Of a stretch of 44,539 nucleotides of DNA, positions 1 through 17,832 are shown one piece after another. The stretch comes from a virus, in the IMG/VR virus record IMGVR_UViG_3300023109_000042, positions 1 through 44,539 of that record, one strand, 5' to 3'. A program made the position numbers and the translations under genes. Below the pieces are notes generated by a model. The model ran no database searches. It saw only the letters and a program-made list of their open reading frames with translations, and was not told the DNA's origin. Numbering within the stretch: position 1 is the stretch's first letter; every line of letters begins with the position of its first letter.

Positions 1-399
1 ATGATTAGTATCACGCAACCCGTCTACACTGAATATAACTGCGCCTTTGTTATTAATAACATGAGCAAGCTCTGACCACCATTCAACACTCTTTGCTCCG
101 GCGTTGGTATTCATACTTAACCACATTGTAGGATTATGTAGTCTAAAGTATTTGAATATATCAAGTGTGTCTCTTGCAACAATAGGATCGCCTAAGTTAC
201 CACACATATACATAGTACCTAACTGTTTTATAAATTCAGGCTCAAATATACGTTTGCAATCTTCTAGTGTAAGCTCACTAAGATCGATATGAGGATTTAG
301 TCCTTCGCCACTCATATTACGATCACACATAGGACAGTTGGCTTGACAATTCTGTGTGTTTTCTAAATGAATTGTTTTTATATCATAATAACTATACAT
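1..399 (-). CDS. Radical SAM protein without twitch domain, 3' part outside the window
   Basis: The frame is open from an ATG at 399 to the left window edge (133 codons), so the C-terminus is missing. A CxxxCxxC motif (C18, C22, C25, read NCQANCPMC) is the [4Fe-4S] cluster site of the radical SAM superfamily. It is followed by GNLGDP at about 67-72, in the place of the usual GGEP SAM-binding motif, and by FSVDG near residue 126, typical of the barrel. The cluster motif lies at the very N-terminus, so this protein lacks the N-terminal cysteine-rich twitch domain of the five radical SAM proteins at 4053-10264 and belongs to a different subfamily. The ATG overlaps the end of the upstream gene by 8 nt and has AAGG 7 nt before it. 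The substrate is unknown. Superfamily assignment is firm; function is not. Confidence 0.85.
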   Translation of the reverse strand, partial: MYSYYDIKTIHLENTQNCQANCPMCDRNMSGEGLNPHIDLSELTLEDCKRIFEPEFIKQLGTMYMCGNLGDPIVARDTLDIFKYFRLHNPTMWLSMNTNAGAKSVEWWSELAHVINNKGAVIFSVDGLRDTNH

Positions 400-910
400 G
401 ATCTAACCTTGAATAATATGTTTGTAAATTTGACATTAGATTTATTTGTGCCATGTAGTATTTTTCTGTGTATTCTAAATTATTAACAAATACATACGAT
501 TCAGGATCAATTATTCGAACTTTTCCATCTGTTGTTAAAACCATATTTGCTAATTGTAAGTCACAATTTACAAAAAATTTATTATCTTCTAATTTCTTTG
601 ATGCTTCTATTGCTTGACTCCAACTATCATTAACTGTTGTAATAATATCGCAAATTACATTTTTGTTTATTAAATGATAATATTCTTTTCGTTTTAATAT
701 GTTTTCAATATTATTAACAATATCTAATCTTTCCATAGTATATGTTTCGTGATCAACTAATTCAAAAACCTTTACAAGTGCAGGATTAATATCTGATAAT
801 TGTTTATAGTGTAAAATCCATTGCTCACCGATTTCTTGCCATTCGATATTTCTAACTTTTTTAATTACTATATCATCTTTAAATGTTATAACTGATTGTT
901 CTTCTATCAT
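392..910 (-). CDS. Minimal protein-kinase-like / aminoglycoside-phosphotransferase-like protein
   Basis: This 172-residue protein reads like a compressed kinase fold. VIKK (K17/K18) is in the place of the beta-3 lysine. NPALVKVFELVD (about 42-53) resembles the alpha-C/beta-4 stretch of kinases, and TMERLD (58-63) resembles the hinge. NCDLQLAN (115-122) matches the catalytic loop HxDxxxxN with D117 and N122 kept and His replaced by Asn. IIDPE (133-137) is in the place of the metal-binding DFG/IDF motif. Known kinases are about 250-300 residues, so most of the C-lobe after the metal-binding motif is absent. It starts with an ATGA overlap with the upstream 74-residue gene. It may phosphorylate a sugar or protein in the tailoring island, or be a degenerate binding protein. 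The motif match is seen; activity is inferred. Confidence 0.55.
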   Translation of the reverse strand: MIEEQSVITFKDDIVIKKVRNIEWQEIGEQWILHYKQLSDINPALVKVFELVDHETYTMERLDIVNNIENILKRKEYYHLINKNVICDIITTVNDSWSQAIEASKKLEDNKFFVNCDLQLANMVLTTDGKVRIIDPESYVFVNNLEYTEKYYMAQINLMSNLQTYYSRLDHV

Positions 911-1131
911 TCTGCTAATACCAATTTTATATCTTTGCCAGGCCCTACTTTACTAGGCAAATCTCCATATTGGGTTATATACCATTCTATTACAGCACAA
1001 TACCAATTTTGACTGTTATGGTGTGCTAGTTTATTAAACTGATGTATATTATTATTTGTTGCTTCCATAGTACTTAATGCTCTTGCGCTTTCTATTTGCA
1101 ATTCTCTAAGTGACAATTTTTCTAAATTCAT
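907..1131 (-). CDS. Small protein of unknown function (74 aa)
   Basis: The gene lies between the kinase-like gene and the GT10-like gene and overlaps both by 4 nt (ATGA type), which argues that it is translated as part of the operon. The protein is soluble-looking. It has a helical, charged N-terminal half (LEKLSLRELQIESARAL) followed by an Asn/His-rich middle and a Trp/Tyr patch (NWYCAVIEWYITQYG). It has a single cysteine, no signal peptide, no membrane segment and no motif that I recognise. It is not obviously a RiPP precursor, because it lacks a leader/core division or a residue-rich core. It could be a small adaptor or carrier subunit for a neighbouring enzyme. Confidence 0.6.
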   Translation of the reverse strand: MNLEKLSLRELQIESARALSTMEATNNNIHQFNKLAHHNSQNWYCAVIEWYITQYGDLPSKVGPGKDIKLVLAE

Positions 1132-1988
1132 TTTAAATACTCTATCATTTCTTTGTCAAGATAAATCATATCTTTTAAATTTTCTAATTGATCCTCAAAT
1201 ATTTTTAAATCTTTTAAATTATCATTATACAACTGTCTAGCAACTTTTTTATTATTTTTTACTATTATAACATCGATCGATGTATTAATCAATCTAATTA
1301 TCTCGTTAATATACAAATCAAATCTATTATCAACATTTTCATCAAAACTTAAATCACAATCAAAGGTAAATCCGTACTCTATTAATTTTTTGTACATACC
1401 CGGATAACCGTAATTAAGAAAAGGTTTTCCACTTAATAATGGTCTAAATGTTTTTTCTGATATAAACAAATACGGAACACCTGATATACTACATGTTTCT
1501 ATTTGGAATTCATACAAACTACGATACCATTCTTTTGGCAGTGTTTTTTTAACATGATAGTGAGAAGTAACATCTTTCTCAGAAGGCAAAGATATATTTG
1601 GCCACAAACTATATACGCCCTGATTTAGCACCTCAGCAGATTTTAACCTAGATATTAATTTAGATCTAGTTGTACTAGCTGCTCCATTCATTGTTATGAA
1701 TTTATAAGAGTTATTAGGAACATAATCTACTAAAGGACGTCCGTACATCCAAAACAAAGGAAAATTAATTATATTATCCGATGCAGCAGATATACTTGAA
1801 CAGTATATTTTAGAATTATTAATTACCGAAGAATTAATATTATGTCGCACAGTTAATTCTTCTAATGGTTCTGCTGAAATATCTATATAATTGTTTATTT
1901 CAAAAAACCTATCAAATAAATCTTGCCTATCTATAAACTTTTTATGTATGCAACAACTATGTAAATTAAGCTCACGTAGTGTTTTCAT
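1128..1988 (-). CDS. Putative glycosyltransferase, GT10/fucosyltransferase-like C-terminus
   Basis: The 286-residue protein has SEKTFRPLLSGKPFL (177-191) followed by GFTFD (206-210). This pattern resembles the nucleotide-sugar-binding segment of GT10 fucosyltransferases (SEK.(F/Y)..LL.G..P) and is shared by many unnamed marine-phage proteins. An earlier FITMNGAASTTRSKL stretch (about 98-111) also fits that phage family, where an N..xR pattern precedes the nucleotide-binding half. There is no signal peptide or membrane helix, so it should act in the host cytoplasm. The ATG overlaps the upstream oxygenase-like gene by 17 nt and has AGGA 8 nt before it. Donor and acceptor are unknown. An alternative is a non-catalytic member of the same fold. 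Confidence 0.5.
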   Translation of the reverse strand: MKTLRELNLHSCCIHKKFIDRQDLFDRFFEINNYIDISAEPLEELTVRHNINSSVINNSKIYCSSISAASDNIINFPLFWMYGRPLVDYVPNNSYKFITMNGAASTTRSKLISRLKSAEVLNQGVYSLWPNISLPSEKDVTSHYHVKKTLPKEWYRSLYEFQIETCSISGVPYLFISEKTFRPLLSGKPFLNYGYPGMYKKLIEYGFTFDCDLSFDENVDNRFDLYINEIIRLINTSIDVIIVKNNKKVARQLYNDNLKDLKIFEDQLENLKDMIYLDKEMIEYLK

Positions 1989-2517
1989 TTAAAAATCCTG
2001 ATACTTGTAAAGTATATTTGTTATTCATTCCAGCATTTGCACTTAAATGCAAATGATTACTATCCCAAACAAATCCCTGGTTTGCTTTCCAGTGTGTGCT
2101 ACTATGCCAATCGTTGTTTATTTGATATTGTAAAAAATGTCCAACTTTCCAGTCTTCTAAATAAATGTTTGCACGTACTTTGCGTCTAGTATCATTTGGA
2201 AACCTTTTGTTAATTTGAAAAAAAGTATCTCTATGTATAGGTATACTATTACCAGGTGGTTGTAATATAGTACTTACCGTTACAACTTCCATCCGTAATT
2301 GATTTCCTAAATCTTTAAAATCAACTTGTTTTTCGTTCCACCAAAGTTGCCGTATCAAAGTATTACCGATATCATAGCTATCTGGAAATCCGCCATAGCT
2401 TTCATGTAAATCTTTAAGCTCATGTACTTGATGAGATATACAACTACCACTATGTACATTATAATCTGCACTGAGAAAAATATCAGTATTATAGTCAAGT
2501 GTTATTTCGTAAATCAT
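1972..2517 (-). CDS. 2-oxoglutarate/Fe(II)-dependent oxygenase-like protein (Asp/Asn hydroxylase type)
   Basis: The 181-residue protein fits a double-stranded beta-helix oxygenase. PPGNSIPIHRD (87-97) supplies the HxD iron ligands H95 and D97. HLSANAG (157-163) supplies the distal His (H157) in an H...N arrangement as in aspartyl/asparaginyl beta-hydroxylases. K167, in KYTLQ, sits where an Arg normally binds 2-oxoglutarate, so the co-substrate contact may be altered. The length is close to that of compact phage members. It follows the methyltransferase gene by 2 nt and overlaps the GT10-like gene. The likely role is hydroxylation of a protein side chain or a small molecule in the same pathway. 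The substrate cannot be read from the sequence. Confidence 0.6.
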   Translation of the reverse strand: MIYEITLDYNTDIFLSADYNVHSGSCISHQVHELKDLHESYGGFPDSYDIGNTLIRQLWWNEKQVDFKDLGNQLRMEVVTVSTILQPPGNSIPIHRDTFFQINKRFPNDTRRKVRANIYLEDWKVGHFLQYQINNDWHSSTHWKANQGFVWDSNHLHLSANAGMNNKYTLQVSGFLNENTT

Positions 2518-2519
2518 TT

Positions 2520-3365
2520 TTACTTATATCCAATTTTCATAAACCTTGAGTATTTTTCTAATTGTAATTCTCCTAGATAAAGACAATTATTCATAGGTAT
2601 AGATAAACTAAATTCCTCAGCATCTTTTGCACAATTTACATGTTCTTCTACTTCATAATAGTTATTGCTTTGTAACACCACTAATTTACCATTTGGAATT
2701 TTTGCATACCAGTTGGCAAAGTGTTCTATATGCTCGCAACTGGTATTAATAACTGTATCAGGAGAATCTGTAATAGGATAACTCATTCTATTATTTTTGT
2801 TAGACCAATACTGCCATGTATGTTCATTATAATTTATATCTTGTATATCTTCTACTAATGCTTTAAATTTCCATTGATTTGCAAACCAAGGTTTATTGAA
2901 GGTCTCGGCTATATCAACAGTTGTCTCGTCAATGTCAAAACTACGAATTTTATCTACCTTAATACCGCTTTCAAATATCATAGTAGCAAGAGTACCATAC
3001 CATCCTGCACACAAAAATACTGTACCAAGTTCTACATCTATTTTTTTTAATTGTTCAATTAACCATAGTTTGCTTTGTAATTGCCCTCTACTAAAACAAT
3101 CATTGTCAATATCAATATGATTTACAAAAAAACTTTTAAAAGCTGCAATAAATTGGGTATCAATTTGTTCATTTAATAACAGCCATAACTTCCAAGTATT
3201 ATCTTCCATTATTAATTTGCGTAAATCTTCTTTGTTTTTGTCAGTAACTAAACGTAATATACTAGACAAATCTTTATCAATATAAGATCTACGTAAGTCT
3301 GCAAGCTTACTTTTAGTAGGATACATTAATTCAAATCTATCTAATAACTCAAATGTTTGTAGCAT
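2520..3365 (-). CDS. Class I SAM-dependent methyltransferase
   Basis: A Rossmann-type motif I (TVFLCAGWYGT, about 115-125) is followed by an acidic strand end (SFDID, 142-146), the normal adenosyl-methionine site. NTSCEHIEHF further on resembles the motif IV region. About 110 residues of mainly helical N-terminal extension precede the core. I place the start at 3365 and not at the upstream ATG at 3395, because AGGAG lies 7 nt before 3365 while the upstream ATG has no ribosome binding site. This gives 281 residues and a 17-nt overlap with the preceding glycosyltransferase-like gene. The target is unknown; a sugar, peptide or small metabolite handled by the neighbouring enzymes is plausible. 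Confidence 0.7.
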   Translation of the reverse strand: MLQTFELLDRFELMYPTKSKLADLRRSYIDKDLSSILRLVTDKNKEDLRKLIMEDNTWKLWLLLNEQIDTQFIAAFKSFFVNHIDIDNDCFSRGQLQSKLWLIEQLKKIDVELGTVFLCAGWYGTLATMIFESGIKVDKIRSFDIDETTVDIAETFNKPWFANQWKFKALVEDIQDINYNEHTWQYWSNKNNRMSYPITDSPDTVINTSCEHIEHFANWYAKIPNGKLVVLQSNNYYEVEEHVNCAKDAEEFSLSIPMNNCLYLGELQLEKYSRFMKIGYK

Positions 3366-4032
3366 CAAACTGCTCCTGCAACCAATCAAAGTCATTTATT
3401 CTACGCAAGTCATCAGGCGATTGTGAGTGTTTTTCACCGTATTTTGTGCCTTGAATAGCACCCTGGATAGCATACTCTCCAAAGTCTCTATCAGAGCCTA
3501 CCGTAGTCCAAATTTTAAGTCTTTCATTTGTTTCGTCATCTTTTTGTCTATCAATTACTTTTGCACTTAATTTAGCACACTCTCTAAAAGCACTTTTCCA
3601 TGTTTCAAAAGGTGATATATTATATTGTGTAATATTAGATATCTCAGGCATTGGTTTAAACTTATCTGTAATACTAGTTGTCATATCAGGCTTACTGGTA
3701 TCCATGTCAATTGTTGCCTGACGTGGAAATAATTTTATGCCACCGTACCCATACACAAGATCATTAATAGGATTTTGACTTCTCCATACATGCACATGAT
3801 CTAACTGATGCTCCGGGACTTCATAATTAAAATCAAAATCATCTACAATTCTTGCATCTGCATCTACAATCCAAAACATTTTTGTAAAGCATTTTTTAGC
3901 CGCGGCAATATGTGCTTGATGTATTCCTTTTACACCATGCACACGCTTTGCAGTTGGAAAATCTTCTTTTAATCTTTTCCAGTTCTGTTCAGCATTAATT
4001 TCTTTATAACTTATATAAACTATATCATACAT
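3349..4032 (-). CDS. DxD glycosyltransferase-like protein, paralogue of 10264-11181
   Basis: The 227-residue protein starts with a Rossmann-like strand (DIVYISYKEINAEQNW). It has RVHGVKG at about 30-36 and VDADAR with a DxD (D57, D59), the metal and nucleotide-sugar site of GT-A enzymes. The gene at 10264-11181 repeats the same order (DIIYLSYDEPNAEKNY, RVHGVEG, VDADN), so the two are paralogues and they bracket the five radical SAM genes. Later shared segments include GYGGIKLFPR and a W.aaFRE motif. The ATG at 4032 has no clear Shine-Dalgarno sequence, and a perfect sigma70-type promoter ends 5 nt upstream, so its message could be leaderless. Donor and acceptor are unknown. Confidence 0.65.
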   Translation of the reverse strand: MYDIVYISYKEINAEQNWKRLKEDFPTAKRVHGVKGIHQAHIAAAKKCFTKMFWIVDADARIVDDFDFNYEVPEHQLDHVHVWRSQNPINDLVYGYGGIKLFPRQATIDMDTSKPDMTTSITDKFKPMPEISNITQYNISPFETWKSAFRECAKLSAKVIDRQKDDETNERLKIWTTVGSDRDFGEYAIQGAIQGTKYGEKHSQSPDDLRRINDFDWLQEQFDATNI

Positions 4033-4037
4033 ACTTT

Positions 4038-4066
4038 ATTATACTTTATTTTTTATTGTTTGTCAA
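4038..4066 (-). promoter_or_regulatory. Sigma70-type consensus promoter inside the tailoring island
   Basis: On the minus strand TTGACA (4061-4066) and TATAAT (4038-4043) are separated by exactly 17 nt, a perfect match to the host vegetative promoter consensus. The -35 box overlaps the last codons of the upstream radical SAM gene and the -10 box lies in the 20-nt gap. The predicted start of transcription (about 4031-4032) falls on the ATG of the downstream gene. It would allow separate expression of the genes from 4032 leftwards. Confidence 0.6.
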
Positions 4067-5279
4067 GATATAACCACGGTAGGTATTTTTTTGTATCTTG
4101 TTTTCTATAATTGTCTTGTTTTTCAACATGAGCTTTAAACTGTTCTATCTCCATTTTAGGTTTTGTAGTTTCCATTAAATTAATACATGCAATGAGTTGG
4201 TTATAAAGATATGTGTTTCGATCATTTTTCATTTTATCTGCATGTTTAAGTATTTGATTCTTAAGTTTTTGTTTATGTTTCTTTCTTAATATACTTGTAC
4301 AAGAATGCGACGGACTATATGGCCAAATAAAATACGGAATAGTTCTAAAATTCTCTATATGCGAAAACTGATTAAAGTATTTTAATATATCTACAAATCC
4401 ATGAATTCCGTAAGTTTGAAATACAGTGTGTATTTCAACTTCATAAGTAGGATGATTTTCAATCAATTCTATTAACTTCCTAAAGTTCCTATCAACAACA
4501 CTCCATTTGCCTGGATACCTTACATATTCGTATAAATCTCCTACAGCATCTATACTTATATGCATACGTACCATTTTAAATTTAGACAATCTGTCAAAAA
4601 ATTTCTTAGGCATAATAGTTAAATTTGTATGAAACGTAAATATAATATTTTTGCTTAAATCATTATTATGTAAGTAATCGCAAAATTCTAAAAAATCATT
4701 GTTTAGTAAAGGTTCGCCGCCTGTTACTAGTAATTCTGTAACAGTAGCCGATATTTTATCTAATGTTATTTTTAAATTTTTGTAAGACCATTTATTATTA
4801 TCAAGAGGCTCAAAAAATTTATACAAATCATTGTATTCTGTTTCAAGCTGATTTGATGCCCAAGGACCGCACATTTTACATTGTAGATTGCATTTATTGC
4901 TCCAAGACAAATCTAGACTTTCTACTGATAAATTAATAATTTCTCCAGTTTCTAAATCTGTATTATCAGTAAATTTTTCAACTTCAAAAGATTGCAAAAC
5001 ACCATTACGAACACTTGTTCCATTTTTATCTTCTATAGAATAACATGCACTACATATATTAGGCCTATCTCCATTTAACATTTGTTTGCGTATATTTTTA
5101 TAAAAATCTTGATTAAAATAATCTTTAATATTTTTTATTTCATCGATGTATATAGGATTACCGTCTGAATCTAGTATATCACCACTAGTACTAGTATTAC
5201 AACAGATTCTCATTCTGCCGTCAGTATGTGTGCTAAAATGTGTCCAGGGATATGGACAAATAACATCTTTAGAATTCAT
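4053..5279 (-). CDS. Twitch-domain radical SAM protein
   Basis: The 408-residue protein has an N-terminal cysteine module with C8 (CPYPWTH), C26-C27 (RICCN) and C76/C79 (CSACY). This fits the twitch/SPASM-like auxiliary [4Fe-4S] site of N-terminal-twitch radical SAM proteins. The catalytic cluster motif CNLQCKMC follows (C130, C134, C137), with TGGEPLL after it. A barrel strand (MHISIDAVGDLYEYVR) and a C-terminal tail (KQDNYRKQDTKKYLP) match those of its four neighbours. Such enzymes usually modify peptides or proteins by radical chemistry. GGAG lies 8 nt before the ATG, which overlaps the preceding stop by 4 nt (ATGA). It is the last gene of the tandem array. The substrate is unknown. Confidence 0.9.
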   Translation of the reverse strand: MNSKDVICPYPWTHFSTHTDGRMRICCNTSTSGDILDSDGNPIYIDEIKNIKDYFNQDFYKNIRKQMLNGDRPNICSACYSIEDKNGTSVRNGVLQSFEVEKFTDNTDLETGEIINLSVESLDLSWSNKCNLQCKMCGPWASNQLETEYNDLYKFFEPLDNNKWSYKNLKITLDKISATVTELLVTGGEPLLNNDFLEFCDYLHNNDLSKNIIFTFHTNLTIMPKKFFDRLSKFKMVRMHISIDAVGDLYEYVRYPGKWSVVDRNFRKLIELIENHPTYEVEIHTVFQTYGIHGFVDILKYFNQFSHIENFRTIPYFIWPYSPSHSCTSILRKKHKQKLKNQILKHADKMKNDRNTYLYNQLIACINLMETTKPKMEIEQFKAHVEKQDNYRKQDTKKYLPWLYLDKQ

Positions 5280-6616
5280 AAATCTAACTCCGGTATATAT
5301 TGTTTATGATCAATTTTTCTAAAATTATCTAATACTTTTATTCTATTTTTAAAACTTTCAAAGTGCTTTTCATTACGAGGAGTTTGTATTTCGTGTATTA
5401 CTAGATCTATTTTATGAACAATTTCAGGAAACTCTTTAAGTATCAATGAGTTTTTCTTATATTCTTCTAATCTATCTATTGCAAGTATTTTATTTCTTTC
5501 AGAAAGATTATTTACTGCCTGTCCTTCTGGAAAGTAAAGTAAGTTTATGTTATAAGGCCATTCTTTGAAATACGGATATTCTGTACTTTGTTCTTCTATC
5601 CAATATAACAAATCAGTTAAATTTAATACGTTTAATAAATTTACTGTGATATTAGTTGTTAATTTAACATTATTAGCACTTAAATATGATTTTGCTTTTT
5701 TATAATTAGTCGAAAGTGCCGACCACTTACTAGGAAATCTACAATATTCTTGAACTTTTTCCGTACCGTCAATACTAGCAATGAGTTCAAACTTTTTAAA
5801 ATGTGGCATAAAATCTAGAAAACTCTGATGTATGTTTGTTAAATTAGTAGCAACATGTACGTTAATATTTTGACTTAACCCATTATCAACTGCATATTGT
5901 AGTGCTTTGCTTACCCAAGGCATTAACGGTGGTTCGCCTCCGGCAAAACTTAATGTTTCTATGCCAGGTAATATTTTACAGAAACTATTCCATATGTTTT
6001 CGTCATCACTCCAGTCTGGAACATCTATTCCTGCAAAATCTTTGTTGTTTTCTATTATGCCAGGCTTGTCTGATATCTTTTCAAATCTTCCTGTATTAAC
6101 TTCAATTCCGCCATGTGTTTTTGCAAGTGCTTTTAATTCTTTTGCTATCTGACTGCTATCATAACTGTTGCACATTACACATTTTAAGTTACATAAGTTG
6201 TTAGGTTTTAGTTCTAATCTCTTTGGAGTCTTATCAGAGTGTCCGTTGTTATCTAATATATCGCTCACTCTGTTTAACACTTCTCTGTTATTTTTATATT
6301 CATTAACAGACCGTTGTCTCATACTTGCAATGCCATCTCTATAACAAATGTCACATGCAGATAATTTTTCACCTTTATGCATTTTAGTTCTAATATCTTT
6401 TAAACTATTGCTATTCCAAACTTCTTCAAATGTATTGCCGTGAGATATAACAAACTGATCATCAACGCCGCTGTCAAGTTCTGGTTTTAATGTATCAGCG
6501 TAATAGCAGCAAGGTTTTACATGTCCTGCAGGATTAGTGCTTAGTTCTAAAAAAGGATAAAAACAAAAAGTATCACTTTCGATTATTTCTTTACGTAACT
6601 TATCTACCTTATCCAT
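5276..6616 (-). CDS. Twitch-domain radical SAM protein
   Basis: I start this gene at 6616 because GGAG lies 7 nt upstream and the protein then begins MDKVDKLRKE. A longer frame to 6685 has 23 additional residues that read as overlap with the upstream gene. In the 446-residue form the twitch cysteines are C18 (FCFYPF), C36-C37 (KPCCYY) and C88/C91 (CDICY). The radical SAM cluster is C142, C146, C149 (CNLKCVMC) and FAGGEPPL is the SAM-binding motif. SIDGTEKVQEYCRFPSKW is a segment common to the set. It is the longest member, with an insertion of about 30 residues after the cluster (GGIEVNTGRFEKISDKPG). It overlaps the upstream gene by 8 nt and the downstream one by 4 nt. Confidence 0.9.
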   Translation of the reverse strand: MDKVDKLRKEIIESDTFCFYPFLELSTNPAGHVKPCCYYADTLKPELDSGVDDQFVISHGNTFEEVWNSNSLKDIRTKMHKGEKLSACDICYRDGIASMRQRSVNEYKNNREVLNRVSDILDNNGHSDKTPKRLELKPNNLCNLKCVMCNSYDSSQIAKELKALAKTHGGIEVNTGRFEKISDKPGIIENNKDFAGIDVPDWSDDENIWNSFCKILPGIETLSFAGGEPPLMPWVSKALQYAVDNGLSQNINVHVATNLTNIHQSFLDFMPHFKKFELIASIDGTEKVQEYCRFPSKWSALSTNYKKAKSYLSANNVKLTTNITVNLLNVLNLTDLLYWIEEQSTEYPYFKEWPYNINLLYFPEGQAVNNLSERNKILAIDRLEEYKKNSLILKEFPEIVHKIDLVIHEIQTPRNEKHFESFKNRIKVLDNFRKIDHKQYIPELDL

Positions 6617-7868
6617 TATATTGCTCCAATATATTGTGAAACTCTGGAAATGTATCTTGAAAACTTGTGTTTCGAATCTTATCAAGACCTTGAATATAAT
6701 CTAGGTATTGCGGATATAACTCCGACAAGTCTTCTTGATACATAAAATCTATTTGATGAGAAATCTTTTCATTCCATTGTTTGTTGTCGGGCAATTTTAA
6801 GCTAGCCCATTTGTCTTTTATTTTATCTTTTATTTCTTTAGGAAACATTTGCGTACAAAGATATCTCGGCCAATGTACTGTTCCTGCATGGAATAATCCA
6901 TTATGGTGTCTTATACCTATTTTTTTAAAGTTTTGTTCAAGTAACGATGTAGCAAAGTCTGGAATATAAAATATATTCATTGCATGTACTGTGCAAAGTA
7001 TTTTTACTTCAATATTATCAGGTGTATTATCTAATGTATTTAGATTTTCTTGTATAACATTCCAGTCAGCCGGATATCTCACATAATCATGATGCTTGCC
7101 CCAGGCATCCATACTAATCATTAGTTCTACATATCCAAACTCTTTCCAAAGTTCTAATACTTCTTCTGGCAATACTGTACCGTTTGTATGATATCTTAGA
7201 TTAATATGCTTACTATGTCCTGTCTCTACAAGTTTTCGTAGCATTCTATGATGTTCTTTTATAAGCAGAGGTTCGCCACCGGCAAAAATCATATGACGTA
7301 TGTTTGCAAACATAGGCTCAAAGTCTTGCCATAGTTTTTCTTTTTTGTACCATTCGAACTTTGTAGTATCAATTTCTAGTTTGTGCTTCCAATCCCACTT
7401 TGCATCTGACTTTAATTCTTCTGCTAGTTTTTTAGCAGGATTTAACCACATACTGCTGTCTTGAGGCCTACACATCACACATTGTAGATTACAAGTATTG
7501 CCTAATCTAAAGTCTAGTGTTACTAAATCTTCTTCGAGTGTGCCGTCTTCTTGTGTAGCTTCAACTAAACTGTTGATTTTATCCTCGCCTAGTTCTCGTT
7601 TCCATAATGTATTTTCATTAATACGATGACTGCGGATGCCTGCTGATTCTTCTTTATAGCAGTGTTCGCATGCCATGACTTTTTGTCCAGACAACATCTT
7701 TTTTCGAGCATCTTTCCAATGTTCGCTGTTCCATATTTCACTTACTGTTTGATCGTTTAAGTTATGCTTATAACTGTTCTTAGCAACACAGCATAGTAAG
7801 GCACTGCCGTCAGTCCATGTAGCCATGTGTGTCCAAGGTAAAACGCAAAATGTTTTCGATTCAGTCAT
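6609..7868 (-). CDS. Twitch-domain radical SAM protein
   Basis: The 419-residue protein has all the family marks: twitch cysteines C8 (FCVLPWTH), C26-C27 (LLCCVAK) and C67/C70 (CEHCY); cluster C126, C130, C133 (CNLQCVMC); FAGGEPLL; and a SMDAWGKHHDYVRYP segment in the barrel. An EIWNSEHWKDARKKML segment between the twitch cysteines recurs in the neighbours as (V/E).WNS..(F/W)K..R..ML.G and is typical of N-terminal-twitch radical SAM proteins. The C-terminus has LDKIRNTSFQDTFPE, which is shared with the proteins encoded at 7861 and 8975. It begins ATGACTGA and overlaps the preceding stop by 8 nt. It probably acts in the cytoplasm; substrate unknown. Confidence 0.9.
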   Translation of the reverse strand: MTESKTFCVLPWTHMATWTDGSALLCCVAKNSYKHNLNDQTVSEIWNSEHWKDARKKMLSGQKVMACEHCYKEESAGIRSHRINENTLWKRELGEDKINSLVEATQEDGTLEEDLVTLDFRLGNTCNLQCVMCRPQDSSMWLNPAKKLAEELKSDAKWDWKHKLEIDTTKFEWYKKEKLWQDFEPMFANIRHMIFAGGEPLLIKEHHRMLRKLVETGHSKHINLRYHTNGTVLPEEVLELWKEFGYVELMISMDAWGKHHDYVRYPADWNVIQENLNTLDNTPDNIEVKILCTVHAMNIFYIPDFATSLLEQNFKKIGIRHHNGLFHAGTVHWPRYLCTQMFPKEIKDKIKDKWASLKLPDNKQWNEKISHQIDFMYQEDLSELYPQYLDYIQGLDKIRNTSFQDTFPEFHNILEQYNG

Positions 7869-8982
7869 TTAAATTCCATATCTCTTTAAAAGAAGGTACC
7901 ATTTCTAAAAAGTTTAAGTTTCGTTCTTTATCTAGACTACTAATATTTTCTTTTACTAGCTGCCAGCTATCTATTTGATCCTCACTTAATCTTTCGATCG
8001 TAACTTTGTAGGGATTATCAATTATAGCATAGTTATAGTCTAAATTCAACCGATTAAATTTTTCTATAAGATTATGTTTGGTACTACTAGGCAACGAACT
8101 TAGTTGTTGCCAATGCGGCCATCTAATCCAATCCCATTCTACCTTCCACAAAGGCAAATTATTGTGTATGTAATCTACCAATTTATCTAGTTCTAATACA
8201 TTAACTAAATTTACTACAGTGTGAATAATAAAATGCACGTTACTTTTATGTTGCCACCATTCTTCAAATGTTTTAATTATCGAAATACAATCATCAAATT
8301 TAGAAGGCCATCTATACCAATCGTTTGCAGTATATATACCGTCCATGCTTACACACAAATATACATTATTACATTGTTCGATTAAATCTTTTAGTTCTTG
8401 ATCAGGTAATATAGTTCCGTTAGTACAAATTTGTAAATTTACTTTAGTTAAATCTAAACTACGTAACAGTTTCTTAAATTTAGCACCTTCCATAAAAGGC
8501 TCGCCGCCTATAATCTTTAGATCAGTTACATCTAATAAATCCCACTTTTCAAAATCAAAGTCATTTTTTAAAAATCCCTTTGTTTCTACTCTATTTGCTT
8601 TTTTATCTTCAGCTTGCCATTTACTACTAAAAAATCCACTACAATGCGCACATGCTAAGTTACATAGATTGCTAAAACTTACTTCTAATTGTTGTACTGG
8701 CACAGTTTTATTTTCAGTAGGTGTAAATTTTGAAAGACTATGCTGTCTCATACTGCGTAGGCCGTTGCGCTCATCTTGATAGCACCCGTGACAACCTTCT
8801 ACAGATTCTCCAGATAGCATTTTATCTCTAATGTCTTTCCAATGCGCTGTATTACGCACACGATCATTCCAAACATAGCTATCTTCTTCGTCAATGTGAG
8901 GATATCTACAGCAAGGTATTGTTAAGCCGTTTGGCCTAATAGCCGCTGCAAAAAAAGGATATGAACAAATAGTCTTATTCAA
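7861..8982 (-). CDS. Twitch-domain radical SAM protein with TTG start
   Basis: This is the shortest of the five (373 residues). Twitch cysteines are C6 (CSYPFFAAA), C24-C25 (PCCRYP) and C64/C67 (CHGCY). The radical SAM cluster is C107, C111, C114 (CNLACAHC) with IIGGEPFM after it. CAHC in place of (C/K)MC marks it as the most divergent in the cluster loop. The C-terminal LDKERNLNFLEMVP tail is conserved. No ATG is available near the N-terminus; a TTG at 8982 has AAAGGA 8 nt before it and gives the same 8-nt overlap with the preceding gene seen at other junctions, so I accept TTG. The IRPNGLTIPCC segment fits the twitch pattern (..T.G....CC). Substrate unknown. Confidence 0.88.
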   Translation of the reverse strand: MNKTICSYPFFAAAIRPNGLTIPCCRYPHIDEEDSYVWNDRVRNTAHWKDIRDKMLSGESVEGCHGCYQDERNGLRSMRQHSLSKFTPTENKTVPVQQLEVSFSNLCNLACAHCSGFFSSKWQAEDKKANRVETKGFLKNDFDFEKWDLLDVTDLKIIGGEPFMEGAKFKKLLRSLDLTKVNLQICTNGTILPDQELKDLIEQCNNVYLCVSMDGIYTANDWYRWPSKFDDCISIIKTFEEWWQHKSNVHFIIHTVVNLVNVLELDKLVDYIHNNLPLWKVEWDWIRWPHWQQLSSLPSSTKHNLIEKFNRLNLDYNYAIIDNPYKVTIERLSEDQIDSWQLVKENISSLDKERNLNFLEMVPSFKEIWNLND

Positions 8983-10264
8983 CGCCTAGTTCCTTTGCAA
9001 GTTCAGGAATAGCATCTTTAAAACTTTCGTTTCTAGTCTTGTCTAGCATACGAGTATAATTTAAAAAGTTTTTCATTAGTGTTTCATGATCTTGATGCTG
9101 TTCTTTGCGCATTAGATTAATGATGCCCTGAATTGTAGTTTTAATTCTCGGTTCATTTAATAGCTTACCTTGATACGACTCTAAATTAAGTGCAGCCTTT
9201 TCTCTAATATGCTGCGGTAGTATTGTTACATCTAAGTAAAACGGATGATCGTTTATCAAATAGTCAATGCCAATTGGCCTGTCGTATTTTTCACTAATAG
9301 AATCTACATAATATAGCATATTATGACAATCTAAAACATTATAAGTTTGTACAACTGGTGAAACGTCTAAATTAACATTTTTTAGTTGTGCAATCTTTTG
9401 AAAGTTTTCATCAATTTTTTTCCACTTGCTAGGCGAGCGTATATAATCATTTACTTTTTCGTATCCATCTAGGCTACAATTAATTTTTATGTTAGAAAAC
9501 TTACTAATTAGACTTAAAAATTTATCAGTTACGTTTGTGCAGTTAATGTTAAAGAATATTTCAATCTTATCTTGATATCCTGCTGCAACTATTTCTTCCA
9601 TAAATCTATAATTGTTGTTTATAAGAGTAGGCTCGCCGCCGGTCATATAAACTTTACTTAAATTTGGAATAAGACCTATAATCTCATTCCATAAAAAGTT
9701 ACTATCAAAATTTAAGTCGCTGTCTTTTAAGAAAGTAGGATTTGGTCCCCAGTTATTATTCCAAAATTCTTTGTATTCTTCACTTTTTTCGTATGAGCTA
9801 AAGTGTTCTTTAGCAATTTGACTGCTATTAAACGGATTACACATACGACATTTAAGATTACACAAGTTTCCTAGTCTAAGATCTAAATATACAGGTGGTA
9901 ATTTTACTTCGTAGTTATTTTCTTTTGCACTATTAATAAAGTTGTGCAGTTCGGGTCCTAGTCTATTACGCCACTCAGCAGTCATTCTAGTTCTAAAGCT
10001 ATCTAAGCCTATACTTTCTTGTTTGTAACAATGCTTACACGCTTCTACTTGAACACCGTTGAGCATATCTTTTCTAGCATTTTTAAAAACTTCACTGTTC
10101 CATGCATCTTCTACACTGTTTTTGCCAACCATCATAGGAGATCCATCTGCATTACGTGCAAAGGCTGTTGGGCCGCTTGCAATACAGCAATAACGCATTT
10201 TACCATCAGTGTTTAACATAGTACTAATAAATGGCATAGCACAAAAGGTTTTTGATTTTCTCAT
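8975..10264 (-). CDS. Twitch-domain radical SAM protein, first of the tandem array
   Basis: The 429-residue protein has twitch cysteines C8 (FCAMPFI), C26-C27 (RYCCIAS) and C76/C79 (CKHCY). The catalytic cluster is C135, C139, C142 (CNLKCRMC), followed by MTGGEPTL. LDLRLGNLCNLKC resembles the LDFRLGNTCNLQC of the protein encoded at 6609, which suggests those two are the closest pair. The C-terminal LDKTRNESFKDAIPEL tail is the clearest copy of the shared tail. The start overlaps the stop of the upstream glycosyltransferase-like gene by 1 nt (TAATG), so the enzyme should be made together with it. Confidence 0.9.
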   Translation of the reverse strand: MRKSKTFCAMPFISTMLNTDGKMRYCCIASGPTAFARNADGSPMMVGKNSVEDAWNSEVFKNARKDMLNGVQVEACKHCYKQESIGLDSFRTRMTAEWRNRLGPELHNFINSAKENNYEVKLPPVYLDLRLGNLCNLKCRMCNPFNSSQIAKEHFSSYEKSEEYKEFWNNNWGPNPTFLKDSDLNFDSNFLWNEIIGLIPNLSKVYMTGGEPTLINNNYRFMEEIVAAGYQDKIEIFFNINCTNVTDKFLSLISKFSNIKINCSLDGYEKVNDYIRSPSKWKKIDENFQKIAQLKNVNLDVSPVVQTYNVLDCHNMLYYVDSISEKYDRPIGIDYLINDHPFYLDVTILPQHIREKAALNLESYQGKLLNEPRIKTTIQGIINLMRKEQHQDHETLMKNFLNYTRMLDKTRNESFKDAIPELAKELGVE

Positions 10265-11181
10265 TACTTTTCGATATCTATAAGTTTTCTAGAATTTCTA
10301 GATGGATTTTGGTAAACTGATTTAAAGAATTTACTTTGTTGTGCATTCAACGGCTGTTCTGCAATAGGAATGTTTAGTTCATTAATTAATTTAATTCCAT
10401 ATTCTTCTATTTCATAATCAACATCTTCAATTGATTCGAAAGACACTTTCCATAAATCATTTAAGTATTCAAAATCTCTCACATTTATAAAATCCCAATC
10501 TGTACACATTGTCATATGCAATCCTGCACGGGCGCCGAGAATTGCCCATTCACCATGTTCTGCATCAGCACCTATCATTAACCAAATATATAAACGTTGT
10601 AAATTTTTCCAATGTCCTTTTACTAAATCATATTTGCTAGTACGCACACCTTCGTCCAGCGTCATCTTAACACCTTCACGGAAACCTGCACGCCATGCTT
10701 GCTGCGGTGTTGCATTATTATGCACAGTTGAAAAACAACTATTTTGTTGAATATAATTTAAATCCCAACAAAAGTCTACTTGTGCATGTGGATTATCGTC
10801 TGGCGCATTTTCATGCGTTTTCATATTAAGAACATAATCTTTAGGCCAACATTTTATGCCGCCGTTGCCGTACATTAACCCGTTAATTATATTTTTGCCG
10901 CACCAACTTATTACACTATTTTCTAAATTAGATAATTGATCAAACGGTATTTCTTGATTTATAAACGAACCATCTATTTTATTATCGGCGTCTACTGTAA
11001 TAAAACGTTCTGTTTCACTTAGTTTTGCACATGCTTTATGCGCTGCATCTGATCCTTCTACCCCGTGTACACGTTTAGCCCAAGGAACTTTACTACACAA
11101 ATCTGCATAGTTTTTTTCTGCATTTGGTTCATCATATGACAAATAAATAATATCACAGTCTGCTACTCTAAAGTTATTCAT
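10264..11181 (-). CDS. DxD glycosyltransferase-like protein, paralogue of 3349-4032
   Basis: I start at 11181 (MNNFRVADCDIIYLS): AAAGG lies 6 nt upstream and the 8-nt overlap with the preceding gene matches other junctions. The longer frame to 11211 lacks such a site. The 305-residue protein has DIIYLSYDE at about 10-18, RVHGVEG at 37-43 and VDADN with D64 and D66 as the DxD. GNGGIKCWP, QAWRAGFREGVKMTL and a GEWAILGARAG segment match its paralogue. About 80 residues more than the paralogue are spread over the middle and a C-terminal tail. It precedes the five radical SAM genes and probably transfers a sugar to the same substrate or substrate class. Confidence 0.65.
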   Translation of the reverse strand: MNNFRVADCDIIYLSYDEPNAEKNYADLCSKVPWAKRVHGVEGSDAAHKACAKLSETERFITVDADNKIDGSFINQEIPFDQLSNLENSVISWCGKNIINGLMYGNGGIKCWPKDYVLNMKTHENAPDDNPHAQVDFCWDLNYIQQNSCFSTVHNNATPQQAWRAGFREGVKMTLDEGVRTSKYDLVKGHWKNLQRLYIWLMIGADAEHGEWAILGARAGLHMTMCTDWDFINVRDFEYLNDLWKVSFESIEDVDYEIEEYGIKLINELNIPIAEQPLNAQQSKFFKSVYQNPSRNSRKLIDIEK

Positions 11182-12010
11182 TTTGTGCCTTTCTATTACA
11201 ATCATATGCAACTGTTGTATATATACTTAATTGTTCTAGGTCAGATTCTTGATCAAATATGAAAGGAATTTTTGCAGTAATTTCTTCTCTTTTCTCTAAA
11301 ATTAACCATATCAAATTGTCCTTTATGTATAAACCGCCTGTAGGTGTATCTTTCCTATTAGTAAATACACTATCAATTACAACCTTATCTAAATCAATAT
11401 CTAAATAATCATTAGTTAAACAATAAATTTTGTTATTGTGAAATACATGATCTCCAGGGTAGTATACTGAATCTTTTTTATTATCCTTTACTTTAATACC
11501 TTTGTATACATGTTCGTCTTTATAATCTTTAGAGGTTTGATAAAGGTCAAACTCTAAAAGTCTTATTAATTTACGAGGATCATGTCTTTTTGTTATACTA
11601 CATTTGAAAAGTCTATGATTGCCTATATTCTTCGATATAACAGTATTATAAAACTCTGTGCCTATCGTAATTTTCCATACTTTTGAGTCAACTATTTGTT
11701 CAATTGTAATATCACCGTGTTTTTTAAACAAAATTTCTTTAAAATTATTCCAGTTTAATAAATCTTCTGAAGCAGTTTTACTTATTAGTTGATACAATTT
11801 ATCTTTTTTATTATACTGTACACAAAAATCATTTAGAGATTTTTCTTTTGATTTAATTTGTTTTTCTTCTAACTCATTAATTTCTACTTTGGAAGTATTT
11901 TTATCATTATCGTCAGGTCCAACTTTCCATACATCGCCTGATTTAGTATCATAGTATGCAAAAGTTTTATTTGGAACTTGTGTATTTTTTATAAGGTCAA
12001 GTAGATCCAT
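11174..12010 (-). CDS. Unknown protein (278 aa) between glycosyltransferase-like genes
   Basis: I do not recognise this protein. It opens with LLDLIKNTQVPNKTFAYYDTKSGDVWKVGP, then a lysine- and glutamate-rich stretch (about 37-60). The rest is rich in alternating hydrophobic and charged residues suggestive of beta structure (IVDSKVWKITIG, NNKIYCLTNDYLDIDLD). It has no signal peptide, no membrane helix and few cysteines. It starts with a TAATG overlap of 1 nt with the upstream glycosyltransferase-like gene and ends 8 nt inside the downstream one, so it is clearly part of the operon. Repeated short strand-turn-strand units would suit a virion or acceptor protein, but nothing here proves either. 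Confidence 0.6.
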   Translation of the reverse strand: MDLLDLIKNTQVPNKTFAYYDTKSGDVWKVGPDDNDKNTSKVEINELEEKQIKSKEKSLNDFCVQYNKKDKLYQLISKTASEDLLNWNNFKEILFKKHGDITIEQIVDSKVWKITIGTEFYNTVISKNIGNHRLFKCSITKRHDPRKLIRLLEFDLYQTSKDYKDEHVYKGIKVKDNKKDSVYYPGDHVFHNNKIYCLTNDYLDIDLDKVVIDSVFTNRKDTPTGGLYIKDNLIWLILEKREEITAKIPFIFDQESDLEQLSIYTTVAYDCNRKAQNE

Positions 12011-12849
12011 TAATTTTCTCGCTTTGATTCATAAAGAGATATAAGTTTATCGTTACAAAAATCTTTTTCAGTATAATGAAATATTCCAGTTTGTATATAA
12101 TTTCCGACAATAAGTTCTACTTCATCATTTACAAAATAGTCAATTCTGTCTTGCCAGGTATCTGCTATCTTTTTCCAACCCTGTACATTATTTTTCATAT
12201 GTGTAAATGTAGGTATACTTATTCTATCATTTGTTACTTGATCTTCGATATTAAGAATTTTAATAACCAACGATGCTGCTACATCTATACTTAAAAATTT
12301 AGGAGTATTCTTTGATATAAATTTAAAATAAAACGCTTCATAGTTATTACAAACTATTTCTAACATCTTATAAAAATTCATTGCAGTATCACATTTTTTA
12401 AAATAATGAAATCCTACATATGTATTAGGTAAGTCATTTAATTGAAATGCCTTTCTATAATAACTATTTTGTATACGATCACCTCTATATGTTTTTACAT
12501 TTTTTACAAAATACAATTCATAATTATTTAAAATTTTCCACCACGAAGAAATGTCTTGTAATACAATCATATCAGTATCCATTACAATAGTTTCGTCATA
12601 TGGTGATGCATGATAAATCTTCCAACGATTTGAAACTTTCCATGTATCATTAACAGCTGAATCATTCCAGGGAATATCAATTATTTTATCAAATATATTT
12701 TTATAGTTTTTATCTACAGGATCATTTGTAATTAAGCTTACTTTTGTATTAGGATTAGTATGTATTATACTTAACGCATTTAAATATGCTTGTTTGACAT
12801 AGTCGGTTTCATCTGTATTCTGTGCCAACATTACTATGCCCTTAGTCAT
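12010..12849 (-). CDS. GT-A-type glycosyltransferase-like protein, tandem paralogue of 12842-13684
   Basis: I start at the ATG at 12849 (MTKGIVMLAQN): AGGAG lies 7 nt upstream, while the longer frame needs a TTG. The 279-residue protein has an N-terminal strand (KGIVMLAQN), DYVKQAYLNAL, then SPYDETIVMDTDMIV with the DxD at D91/D93. This arrangement fits GT8-like or related GT-A enzymes, where the DxD binds Mn2+ and the nucleotide sugar. The upstream neighbour has the same start (MTKGI), DYVKQA and SPYDETIVMDTD, so the two arose by duplication. There is no membrane segment. Sugar donor and acceptor are unknown. Confidence 0.68.
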   Translation of the reverse strand: MTKGIVMLAQNTDETDYVKQAYLNALSIIHTNPNTKVSLITNDPVDKNYKNIFDKIIDIPWNDSAVNDTWKVSNRWKIYHASPYDETIVMDTDMIVLQDISSWWKILNNYELYFVKNVKTYRGDRIQNSYYRKAFQLNDLPNTYVGFHYFKKCDTAMNFYKMLEIVCNNYEAFYFKFISKNTPKFLSIDVAASLVIKILNIEDQVTNDRISIPTFTHMKNNVQGWKKIADTWQDRIDYFVNDEVELIVGNYIQTGIFHYTEKDFCNDKLISLYESKREN

Positions 12850-13684
12850 TTTCAAACTCCTTATTAATAGCCCTACCTAAACTAAATTTATTCATAGCAT
12901 GAATAGTTAAATCTTTTGTTTTAATAAGTGTATATTCTCCAGTATAATTTTCTTTTTGTATTAAAAATATAATCTCATTATTATCTAATTTTATTACAAC
13001 ATCTCTATCTAAAATATGATATAGTCTACCAGATAACGGTGCTGCAAACGTTCCTTTTTGAAATCCATTCATTATGTGAATAGCAATACTAAAAACAAAA
13101 TCGTTTCTAAACAGAGCTGGTACTTGATATGAAGATTTATAGTGCCACCAGTTATGTTCGATATGTTTAGCTAAATTAAAAAATATGTCATTATTTTTAG
13201 TTTTCCTAAAGAAAAATATAGTTGCCCAGTAAAACTCAACACTAGCATCACTTATATGCTTAAACTCAGATTGATCTCTCCAGTCAGCTAAATCAAAAGA
13301 GTCTTTATATATCTGAAAATCTTGTAGGCTAGAAAAGGCTTCCTTTAATTTATCATTACATATTATTATGTCAGTATCCATTACAATTGTTTCGTCATAC
13401 GGACTTAACTCATATGACAAAGTTCGAGAATTATTGCGCCATGGAAGTCGATACTGAGATAAAGAACCGTCAAAATAAGTTTTAATATTTGATTTTAAAT
13501 TTTCTTCATTTAATTTAATAACATTATCAAAAACTTCAAAAGATTCTGCATAACCTACAGAATCTGTCACAACGGATACTGGAAGATCTAAATAAGTTTT
13601 ACACCTTTTGGCAACAAACGCTGCTTGCTTTACATAATCTACTTTTTCGTTATTATTTGCAAATAATAATATACCTTTAGTCAT
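12842..13684 (-). CDS. GT-A-type glycosyltransferase-like protein, tandem paralogue of 12010-12849
   Basis: The 280-residue protein begins MTKGILLFANN, has DYVKQAAFVAKRC at about 16-28 and SPYDETIVMDTDII with the DxD at D103/D105. The part before the DxD is about 12 residues longer than in the paralogue. The C-terminal half differs more, which suggests different acceptors. An ending rich in charged strands (DRDVVIKLDNNEIIFLI) may be a separate small beta domain. The ATG overlaps the preceding small gene by 8 nt but has no strong Shine-Dalgarno sequence, so translation may depend on coupling. It is the first enzyme gene of the tailoring island. Confidence 0.68.
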   Translation of the reverse strand: MTKGILLFANNNEKVDYVKQAAFVAKRCKTYLDLPVSVVTDSVGYAESFEVFDNVIKLNEENLKSNIKTYFDGSLSQYRLPWRNNSRTLSYELSPYDETIVMDTDIIICNDKLKEAFSSLQDFQIYKDSFDLADWRDQSEFKHISDASVEFYWATIFFFRKTKNNDIFFNLAKHIEHNWWHYKSSYQVPALFRNDFVFSIAIHIMNGFQKGTFAAPLSGRLYHILDRDVVIKLDNNEIIFLIQKENYTGEYTLIKTKDLTIHAMNKFSLGRAINKEFEND

Positions 13685-14027
13685 AATCTACTAATTTTTC
13701 TACTGATCTTTGAGATTTTAATTTGTTATACTCGGTTAGGTAAGTATTAGATGCAGAAAAGTATACATCGAGTATATCAACTAAGAAAGAATTTATATTA
13801 TCTACATTTACAGGTATATTATTATCATCTATTAAAACTGTATTGTCATTGTCGTTTTCATTTAATAAATTTACAAAATTTATTAATTCTTTAGTTACAG
13901 TAAACTGACATCCATTATAATAATACAACGTATTTTCTATAAATTGTTCATTTAAAATACGCTTTTGATTTGATAATGTTACCATGTAATTAGAAAAGTT
14001 TAGTGCTTTTTCTAAACGCTCGTCCAT
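13677..14027 (-). CDS. Small conserved T4-like marine phage protein of unknown function
   Basis: I place the start at 14027 (MDERLEKALNFSNYM), because GGAG lies 6 nt before it. An ATG at 14039 has no ribosome binding site and would leave a leader of only about 8 nt after the promoter at 14054-14082. The 116-residue protein is acidic and probably mostly helical, with TVTKELINFVNLL, VLIDDNNIPV and a C-terminal YLTEYNKLKSQRSVEKLVDYD. From memory, proteins of this pattern are conserved in T4-like cyanophages and relatives, without a known role. It is the first gene after the promoter and heads the accessory operon, although it may itself be a core phage gene. Confidence 0.7.
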   Translation of the reverse strand: MDERLEKALNFSNYMVTLSNQKRILNEQFIENTLYYYNGCQFTVTKELINFVNLLNENDNDNTVLIDDNNIPVNVDNINSFLVDILDVYFSASNTYLTEYNKLKSQRSVEKLVDYD

Positions 14028-14042
14028 ATATTTCTCCATATA

Positions 14043-14056
14043 ACTGTAGTTACAGT
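14043..14056. repeat. 14-bp inverted repeat over the start of the island promoter
   Basis: ACTGTA-GT-TACAGT is a perfect 6-bp inverted repeat with a 2-nt centre. It overlaps the -10 box (14054-14059) and the predicted transcription start (about 14047) of the promoter at 14054-14082. That position suits an operator. It has no following T-run on the minus strand, so it does not look like a terminator. Short dyads also arise by chance in AT-rich DNA. Confidence 0.35.
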
Positions 14057-15290: not shown

Positions 15291-15313
15291 AAAACTTCTC
15301 CAATTCCTACTAT

Positions 15314-15344: not shown

Positions 15345-15355
15345 CTGATTAGAAT

Positions 15356-16279: not shown

Positions 16280-16289
16280 AAACGTTTCC

Positions 16290-17804: not shown

Positions 17805-17832
17805 TTAGTTCTACCCTTCGACTGTATTATAT

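Follow-up and report, generated by a model that had tools for sequence, protein, structure and literature searches.

A fibre-linked phage island with a fixed glycosyltransferase core and exchangeable radical SAM cassettes: a candidate glycan-tailoring locus

We analyzed a 44,539-base virus record, IMGVR_UViG_3300023109_000042 (the window, meaning the whole stretch of DNA at its full length), focusing on an island of putative radical S-adenosylmethionine (SAM) enzymes, glycosyltransferases (GTs), and other tailoring enzymes. The main genes of the window all lie on the minus strand and follow one another as baseplate genes, the gene of a giant protein, that of a phrog_11259 protein, five fibre-like genes, and then the island. 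A preliminary description had reported a tight block of seventeen genes directly after the fibre genes, and this was confirmed: positions 1 to 14039 hold 17 tightly packed minus-strand open reading frames (ORFs) with 99.8% of the sequence coding, the ORF at 1 to 399 being truncated by the window end. The features of the island, followed by those of its surroundings, are as follows.

13677..14039, minus: o120, the small protein opening the island, part of the phage-specific core (order kept in 71/71 loci)
14054..14082, minus: island promoter of sigma70 type, TTGACA-17-TATACT, in the 54-nt gap before o120
12842..13684, minus: GTc, glycogenin-like glycosyltransferase (profile A3 versus glycogenin, E 2e-4)
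12010..12855, minus: GTd, paralogue of GTc, with the same glycogenin profile match
11174..12010, minus: X, 278 residues in the window, with a conserved N-terminus and variable length
10264..11211, minus: GTa, DxD protein with a GT-A-like model (predicted structure)
8975..10264, minus: NT53, N-Twitch radical SAM 1 (NF033640, 356.5 bits)
7861..8982, minus: NT52, N-Twitch radical SAM 2 (NF033640, 229.5 bits)
6609..7868, minus: NT51, N-Twitch radical SAM 3 (NF033640, 394.6 bits)
5276..6685, minus: NT49, N-Twitch radical SAM 4 (NF033640, 309.3 bits)
4053..5279, minus: NT48, N-Twitch radical SAM 5 (NF033640, 304.7 bits)
4038..4066, minus: second sigma70-type promoter, TTGACA-17-TATAAT, scoring 12/12 and ending 5 nt before GTb
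3349..4032, minus: GTb, paralogue of GTa, with relatives in Bdellovibrionota-phylum genomes
2520..3395, minus: MT, putative methyltransferase (by motif only)
1972..2517, minus: putative 2-oxoglutarate (2OG)-Fe(II) oxygenase, HxD...H invariant in 8/8
1128..1988, minus: GT10-like protein (by motif only); its family is frequent in these islands
907..1131, minus: sml74, 74-residue protein conserved along its whole length
392..910, minus: kinase-like protein (phrog_3297, E 1.1e-5)
1..399, minus: RS43, radical SAM enzyme of another subfamily, cut by the window end and full length in G001
400..2521, minus: cassette exchanged in the near-identical phage G002, equal to 45024-47145 of G001
14094..21819, minus: fib1 to fib5, five fibre-like genes upstream of the island
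17833..17840, minus: late-promoter-like motif GATAAATA before fib3
22447..38193, minus: giant virion protein of 5248 residues (context)
38193..44538, minus: gp6-, gp25-, and gp5-like baseplate genes (context)
41673..41680, minus: motif GATAAATA before the gp6-like gene

The count of six radical SAM enzymes given in the preliminary description also held. The Pfam Radical_SAM profile matched six window genes, three of them above Pfam's own cut-off. All five complete enzymes belong to the N-Twitch family (N_Twi_rSAM, NF033640), scoring 230 to 395 bits against the NCBIfam cut-off of 170 and covering nearly the whole model (5/5), and the sixth, RS43, scored 30.6 bits at full length in the longer record G001 against a Pfam cut-off of 29.5. 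The CxxxCxxC motif (C126/C130/C133) was invariant in 14/14 aligned N-Twitch proteins, as were the N-terminal cysteines C8, C27, C67, and C70. Weak matches of the radical SAM enzymes include peptide maturases. Judged by titles and abstract beginnings, we found no paper describing the N-Twitch family as such. Vibrio phage K566 (L044) carries five N-Twitch-like genes by profile at 17846-35219, four with a radical SAM annotation and the fifth listed just as hypothetical.

The four DxD proteins that had been called glycosyltransferase-like form two pairs. For GTc and GTd the label was supported by a profile match to glycogenin (E 2e-4), while GTa and GTb gave no significant match in sequence-based searches (Pfam, PHROG, and others), GTa having none among phage records either, and their label is backed by a fold model. 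The predicted structure of GTa (mean pLDDT, the predicted local distance difference test score, of 71) aligned with GT-A folds at Z scores of up to 10.5 over 133 residues, and on this model GTa and GTb are DxD proteins of predicted GT-A fold. Many of the structural matches are nucleotidyltransferases, so the fold is no proof of glycosyltransferase activity. Searches against phage records gave no result for o120 or X, whose length in relatives ranges from 150 to 459 residues. A subthreshold resemblance to carbohydrate-binding module CBM5/12 was seen in three of the four long forms of X that were scanned and not in the window copy.

The remaining labels proved less firm. The kinase-like protein has conserved K, E, D, N, and D residues (8/8), which we take to be catalytic; its PHROG match (phrog_3297, E 1.1e-5) is weak, and a PDB profile search returned only weak matches to the catalytic loop (best E 0.31). 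In the 2OG protein, H95, D97, and H157 are kept in 8/8; a 74%-identical relative has a subthreshold match to an Asp/Arg hydroxylase (E 0.022), and the PDB profile search was without result. The labels of MT and the GT10-like protein stand on a SAM-binding motif and a family motif, respectively: Pfam and PDB profile searches yielded nothing useful for the former and no match for the latter, whose AlphaFold model was unusable (pLDDT 45). GTa and MT form a single ORF in L113, L116, and L117 (the last two near-copies), which suggests that the two enzymes work together. The small protein sml74 is 72 to 83% identical in relatives whose adjoining MT is 54 to 73% identical. It is conserved over its full length, without the variable core expected of a precursor peptide; no systematic search for short ORFs was made.

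The island is larger than the window shows. In G001 (85,585 bp), whose proteins are 100% identical to those of the window across the whole overlap (window position = G001 position minus 44624), it spans 26698-58663, a length of about 32 kb that reaches some 18 kb past the window edge, and ends at an opposite-strand gene that appears fibre-like by eye. The fourteen-kb block first described is thus present, but its end at position 1 is the edge of the window. Both the window and G001 are fragments, and the record of a relative (G017) reaches 275 kb. Twelve radical SAM genes lie in the G001 island (11 Pfam matches plus NT49, identified by NF033640), together with genes for two TauD proteins, an Asp/Arg hydroxylase, a sulfotransferase, a desaturase, a nitroreductase, and a PP-loop protein (weak match); several further small proteins are 2OG oxygenase-like, by eye only. 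The nitroreductase gene (36386-37028) lies on the opposite strand inside the island, with a separate GATAAATA motif 28 nt upstream of it. A 117-kb record held 21 NF033640 matches, 12 of them over the cut-off, and the 275-kb record 15, of which 11 were over it.

Relatives of GTa or GTb are encoded in at least 584 IMG/VR stretches, and we rejected the idea of a single-phage oddity on this ground. We examined 77 loci, the new ones among the 80 best GTa loci of these stretches (L016, L021, and L023 being left out); they include near-copies, and the hidden Markov models used for labeling were built from these same loci. The order o120, GTc/d, GTc/d, X, GTa was kept in 71/71 loci with at least four upstream genes (L114 and L115 start at GTa and were left uncounted). 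A radical SAM gene was present in all 59 loci having at least 5 kb downstream, and an N-Twitch one in 57/59. After near-copies were merged by shared 5-mers, the figures were 53/53 for core order and 45/45 for a downstream radical SAM gene. Among the 41 loci with at least 9 kb downstream, GTb occurred in 24 and MT in 26, and each had 1 to 10 radical SAM genes. Since core order is constant and downstream content differs, the core is fixed and the rest variable. This search of viral relatives upheld the proposal of a dedicated, co-conserved pathway, and chance or a misreading of the island was rejected on the NF033640 scores and the conserved core order.

Exchange of cassettes was seen directly between G001 and G002, whose DNA identity is about 95% across the fibre genes and the core, and about 90% in much of the distal region. 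The segment 45024-47145 of G001 (window 400-2521) is replaced in G002 between flanks of 90 to 95% DNA identity, except for a remnant of sml74 (76% identical); the four incoming genes include those of a UDP-glucose dehydrogenase and a GT10-family protein. G002 lacks any counterpart of the kinase-like and 2OG genes, and its GT10-family protein (381 residues) is only distantly related to that of the window (26% identity over 205 residues). Outside the island, G001 encodes a UDP-glucose dehydrogenase, an epimerase, PMM, and a cytidylyltransferase.

The island has only two gaps of at least 20 nt, before o120 and before GTb, and each holds a strong sigma70-like site. Counting distinct upstream sequences, with loci L122-L126 from metagenome-assembled genomes included, and scanning 100 nt for sigma70-type sites and 80 nt for GATAAATA (hence slightly different totals), we found a sigma70-type site scoring 11 or 12 of 12 before o120 in 44/62 cases and before GTb in 11/41. 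Such sites preceded none of 130 GTc/d genes, none of 68 X genes, 1 of 138 N-Twitch genes, and none of 108 fib3 to fib5 genes. The motif GATAAATA, by comparison, stood before fib3 in 27/47 cases and before o120 in 0/61, and the window holds it just twice, both times directly before structural genes (gp6 and fib3); it is likely a late promoter motif of the lineage. We also considered TATAAATA, the T4 late motif, and rejected it as the late signal, with 3 matches in the window versus 15.6 expected and none just before a main gene. G001 as a whole has 17 sigma70-like sites scoring at least 11, versus 5, 11, 11, 7, and 4 in five resampled sequences, and strong sites also precede three of its plus-strand genes. 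These motifs suggest that the island and most virion genes fall into different expression classes, that of the island, with its own sigma70-type promoters, probably being the earlier one.

The accessory enzymes have close relatives in bacteria. NF033640 matches over the cut-off were found in 54 of 191 genomes of the Bdellovibrionota phylum (that of a Bdellovibrionales bin, L123, which itself has a phage-like contig), in 2 of 299 Pseudomonadota genomes (the phylum of Rhodobacteraceae bin G015), in 2 of 199 Neomarinimicrobiota genomes, one being a bin that holds phage contigs, and in 1 of 78 genomes of the class of G096, namely G096 itself. GTa/GTb relatives occurred in 11/191 Bdellovibrionota-phylum versus 1/299 Pseudomonadota genomes, both counts including a center genome chosen for having GTa/GTb. 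Relatives of NT39, a radical SAM protein of the G001 island, were present at 51 to 63% identity in 10/183 genomes, one of them on a phage-like contig of the center genome. One Pseudomonadota locus combines four N-Twitch enzymes with Wzt (in one ORF with a radical SAM enzyme), an ABC-2 permease, RmlD, RmlC, and WbsX, and another Pseudomonadota genome has one N-Twitch gene near a GT2 gene and an epimerase gene. Four genomes of the Bdellovibrionota phylum (G403, G417, G432, and G471) each gave more than 30 first-look N-Twitch candidates, an unexplained expansion.

Ten Bdellovibrionota-phylum regions (174,042 bp, 156 genes; four of the contigs only 30 to 56 kb) were chosen through their N-Twitch matches. 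Like the island, these modules bring together the NT39, RS35, RS43, GTa/b, and MT families: N-Twitch genes occurred in 10 regions, RS43-type in 9, RS35-type in 8, GTa/b in 5, MT in 4, PP-loop in 2, and GT10 in 1. The ten regions contained no o120, X, GTc/d, sml74, or fibre gene. Contigs L159 (937 kb) and L161 (1.62 Mb) each hold N-Twitch, RS35-type, RS43-type, and GTa/b genes and at that size are unlikely to be phage. The best identities to G001 were 65% for RS35, 62% for NT39, 47% for RS43, 43% for MT (194 residues), and 41% for GTb. All 15 phage rows of the NT39 tree formed one clade (97/95) inside a bacterial grade, with only the Bdellovibrionota phylum closely sampled, long outgroup branches, and an unsure root. 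Photorhabdus genomes (L128, L129, and L130) carry a GTb relative (39 to 40% identity), adjoined in L128 by GT2, with other glycosyltransferase- and exporter-like proteins visible by eye. Two contigs of a Neomarinimicrobiota bin, L122 and L126 (335 and 153 kb), carry apparently the same phage island and are perhaps pieces of one giant phage.

Taken together, we tentatively interpret the island as a fibre-linked locus for tailoring a glycan or glycoconjugate that acts on a target in the host envelope. The fixed phage-specific core o120-GTc-GTd-X-GTa, with exchangeable cassettes of radical SAM enzymes, GTs, a methyltransferase, oxygenases, and sugar-nucleotide enzymes, would be read from its own sigma70-type promoters, probably earlier than most virion genes. 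In the cytoplasm of the host, its soluble enzymes would assemble or modify a molecule that contains sugar, with radical SAM and oxygenase steps changing unactivated C-H positions. Export machinery belonging to the host would then deliver the product to the envelope. The outcome may be a serotype-like surface change of the infected cell by which competing phages are excluded. Bdellovibrionota are the probable source of the radical SAM/GT/MT module by capture, and they may be the hosts as well. In this picture, gene content, core synteny, cassette exchange, the difference in promoter motifs, and homology to the bacterial modules are observed; the sugar substrate, the envelope target, the exclusion role, the early timing, the direction of gene transfer, and the host phylum are inferred. 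The sugar-containing product is the best-supported step, given the GT folds, the nucleotide-sugar genes, and the bacterial neighborhoods; the fibre or giant-protein target proposed in the preliminary description seems less likely, the promoters and the bacterial module leaning toward a host molecule. What favors the host envelope is its fit with the promoter motifs, with the modules found in bacteria, with the nucleotide-sugar genes that this phage carries, and with how similar islands have been viewed in print. The boldest form of this interpretation strikes us as unlikely: that giant marine phages took an uncharacterized radical SAM/GT pathway from predatory Bdellovibrionota, set it next to the fibre genes under host-type promoters, enlarged it to at least a dozen radical SAM enzymes, and shuffle the cassettes so as to switch, on predator hosts, a surface sugar whose chemistry is unprecedented.

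Several observations weigh against this interpretation, and the lack of an export protein together with the tight fibre link, which both weaken the host-envelope target, are why we keep it tentative. A simple, crude hydropathy scan found the desaturase to be the only transmembrane protein, and no recognizable flippase, polymerase, or transporter, in the G001 and G002 islands; across the 77 loci, 1 of 621 genes downstream of GTa had two or more predicted transmembrane segments. The island alone therefore cannot export a glycan, and an autonomous O-antigen or capsule factory was rejected, as the scan revealed no flippase, polymerase, or ABC exporter. The GT10, MT, and 2OG labels lacked profile support in Pfam and PDB profile searches. 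As for timing, sigma70-type sites also precede 5/91 fib1/fib2 and 9/66 GTa genes, and in the window a sigma70-like site whose spacer measures 19 nt lies in the gap of fib1, a gene that may thus share the sigma70 class. Positions 1 to 20000 of the window showed no overall excess of sigma70-like matches (127 versus 112.4 expected, standard deviation 9.1), and hence only placement and conservation support the sites. Apart from fib3, the fibre genes seldom have GATAAATA upstream (fib1 0/24, fib2 1/66, fib4 1/42, fib5 0/16). With respect to origin and host, L162 and L168 (2/10 regions) hold N-Twitch genes but lack RS35, GTa/b, and MT; the RS35 tree (13 rows, FastTree; near-copy rows from ten loci or records and rows under 250 residues were dropped) showed no clean nesting, with three phage rows among the bacterial ones and three apart; and the bins that contain phage-like contigs are of Bdellovibrionales, Neomarinimicrobiota, and Pacearchaeota, leaving the host evidence mixed.

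A fibre gene stands directly before o120 in 69/71 loci and within four genes in 71/71 (in L073 and L088, two other genes intervene). This also counts against a host-envelope target and suits the main alternative, decoration of virion proteins and most likely of the fibres, in which soluble GTs would glycosylate fibre residues, radical SAM and 2OG enzymes would prepare or edit them, and receptor choice or shielding would be altered. Almost all the enzymes look soluble in the hydropathy scan, X with its weakly CBM5/12-like long forms (3/4) sits inside the core, and glycosylation of mycobacteriophage virions has been described (Freeman 2023, as cited in PMC12619734). We nonetheless consider virion decoration somewhat unlikely: the promoter motifs of the island and of fib3 to fib5 differ, cassettes are exchanged between G001 and G002 while fib1 to fib3 stay 94 to 96% identical, and bacterial regions that lack fibre and core genes also contain the accessory module.

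The abundance of radical SAM enzymes and oxygenases, with a sulfotransferase and a desaturase, also recalls a natural-product cluster, and the product could be a diffusible metabolite or modified peptide, antibiotic-like or signaling, used during infection. The weak peptide-maturase matches and the GT2 gene beside a Photorhabdus GTb relative would fit, and jumbo cyanophage clusters have been read in this way (PMC7824862). Such a product seems improbable to us, since carrier-protein and peptide-synthetase genes were not noticed by eye (no dedicated search was made), no exporter was evident, and sml74 is conserved throughout, unlike a precursor with a variable core. Last, the island might hypermodify the DNA of the phage, with the phage's own 7-deazaguanine genes as the basis. 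G001 encodes at 9058-17631 (L026) a GTP cyclohydrolase I and QueE-like and TGT/DpdA-like proteins, the last two presumed from motifs only and without a Pfam match, and may therefore carry 7-deazaguanine in its DNA; the PP-loop protein lies in the island, and virus GTs can glycosylate DNA (cited in PMC12619734). Yet the island is linked to fibres instead of the 7-deazaguanine genes, its radical SAM set is large and variable, and N-Twitch enzymes occur in polysaccharide-type loci of two bacteria, all of which makes DNA hypermodification very improbable.

The closest known kind of island is the host recognition cluster (HRC) of pelagimyophages, a hypervariable fibre-linked island with GTs and radical SAM cassettes (PMC7029224). 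No characterized phage pathway with this gene set had been known to the preliminary description; indeed we found no biochemical characterization, but these similar islands have been published. As described there, the HRC is likewise large, hypervariable, and joined to tail fibres in the structural region, the HRC lying between VrlC and gp14, GT8 being its most represented GT family, a UDP-glucose 6-dehydrogenase lying among its lipopolysaccharide (LPS) genes, and its radical SAM cassettes varying between related phages (PMC7029224). The present lineage differs in being jumbo-phage-like, whereas pelagimyophages are T4-like with complete genomes of 132 to 164 kb (PMC7029224), and, compared with the HRC as described, the island has a fixed five-gene core, a large N-Twitch set, its own sigma70-type promoter, and a module common to Bdellovibrionota-phylum genomes. 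LPS/O-antigen and secondary-metabolite clusters of jumbo cyanophages (P-SSM2, S-SSM6a) share paralogous GTs, epimerases, a carbamoyltransferase, 2OG oxygenases, and polymorphism between relatives, and have been proposed to block other phages or to make a metabolite; their description mentions neither radical SAM enzymes nor a fixed fibre-linked core (PMC7824862). LPS genes were reported in 76% of one group of marine jumbo phages (PMC9123017), and jumbo-phage LPS clusters are mentioned in a review of 2026 (PMC13282480). Moraphages share core GTs (PMC12619734), and we claim no tie to the island. Judged by titles and abstract beginnings, we found no paper besides PMC7029224 on radical SAM enzymes with marine or jumbo phages, tail fibres, or Bdellovibrio that describes such a set.

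If our interpretation is true, this is a very dense radical SAM set for a phage, with 12 genes in about 32 kb (no survey of other viruses was made), tied to a fixed GT core and built from a pathway that a phylum of predatory bacteria possesses too, and the island offers a practical way of learning what the N-Twitch family does. For gp6, gp25, the giant protein, and the phrog_11259 protein, the best relatives are in jumbo phages such as Phosso, Atu_ph07, PA5oct, RaK2, and 121Q, at low identity, and the window shares the RaK2/Atu_ph07-type order of gp6, giant virion protein, phrog_11259, and fibre gene, all homologous. Radical SAM operons lie close behind the homologous fibre gene in Phosso (L133, 20272-27396) and Atu_ph07 (L134, 18909-25070), phages of Sinorhizobium and Agrobacterium, each with three genes annotated as radical SAM. 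These enzymes differ from those of the island in belonging to other subfamilies with weak N-Twitch similarity (best E 4e-7), those of Phosso being weakly peptide-maturase-like, and no core gene of the island was detected in either locus at E 1e-3. As both cultured relatives have radical SAM operons in the equivalent position, the idea lends itself to bench experiments.

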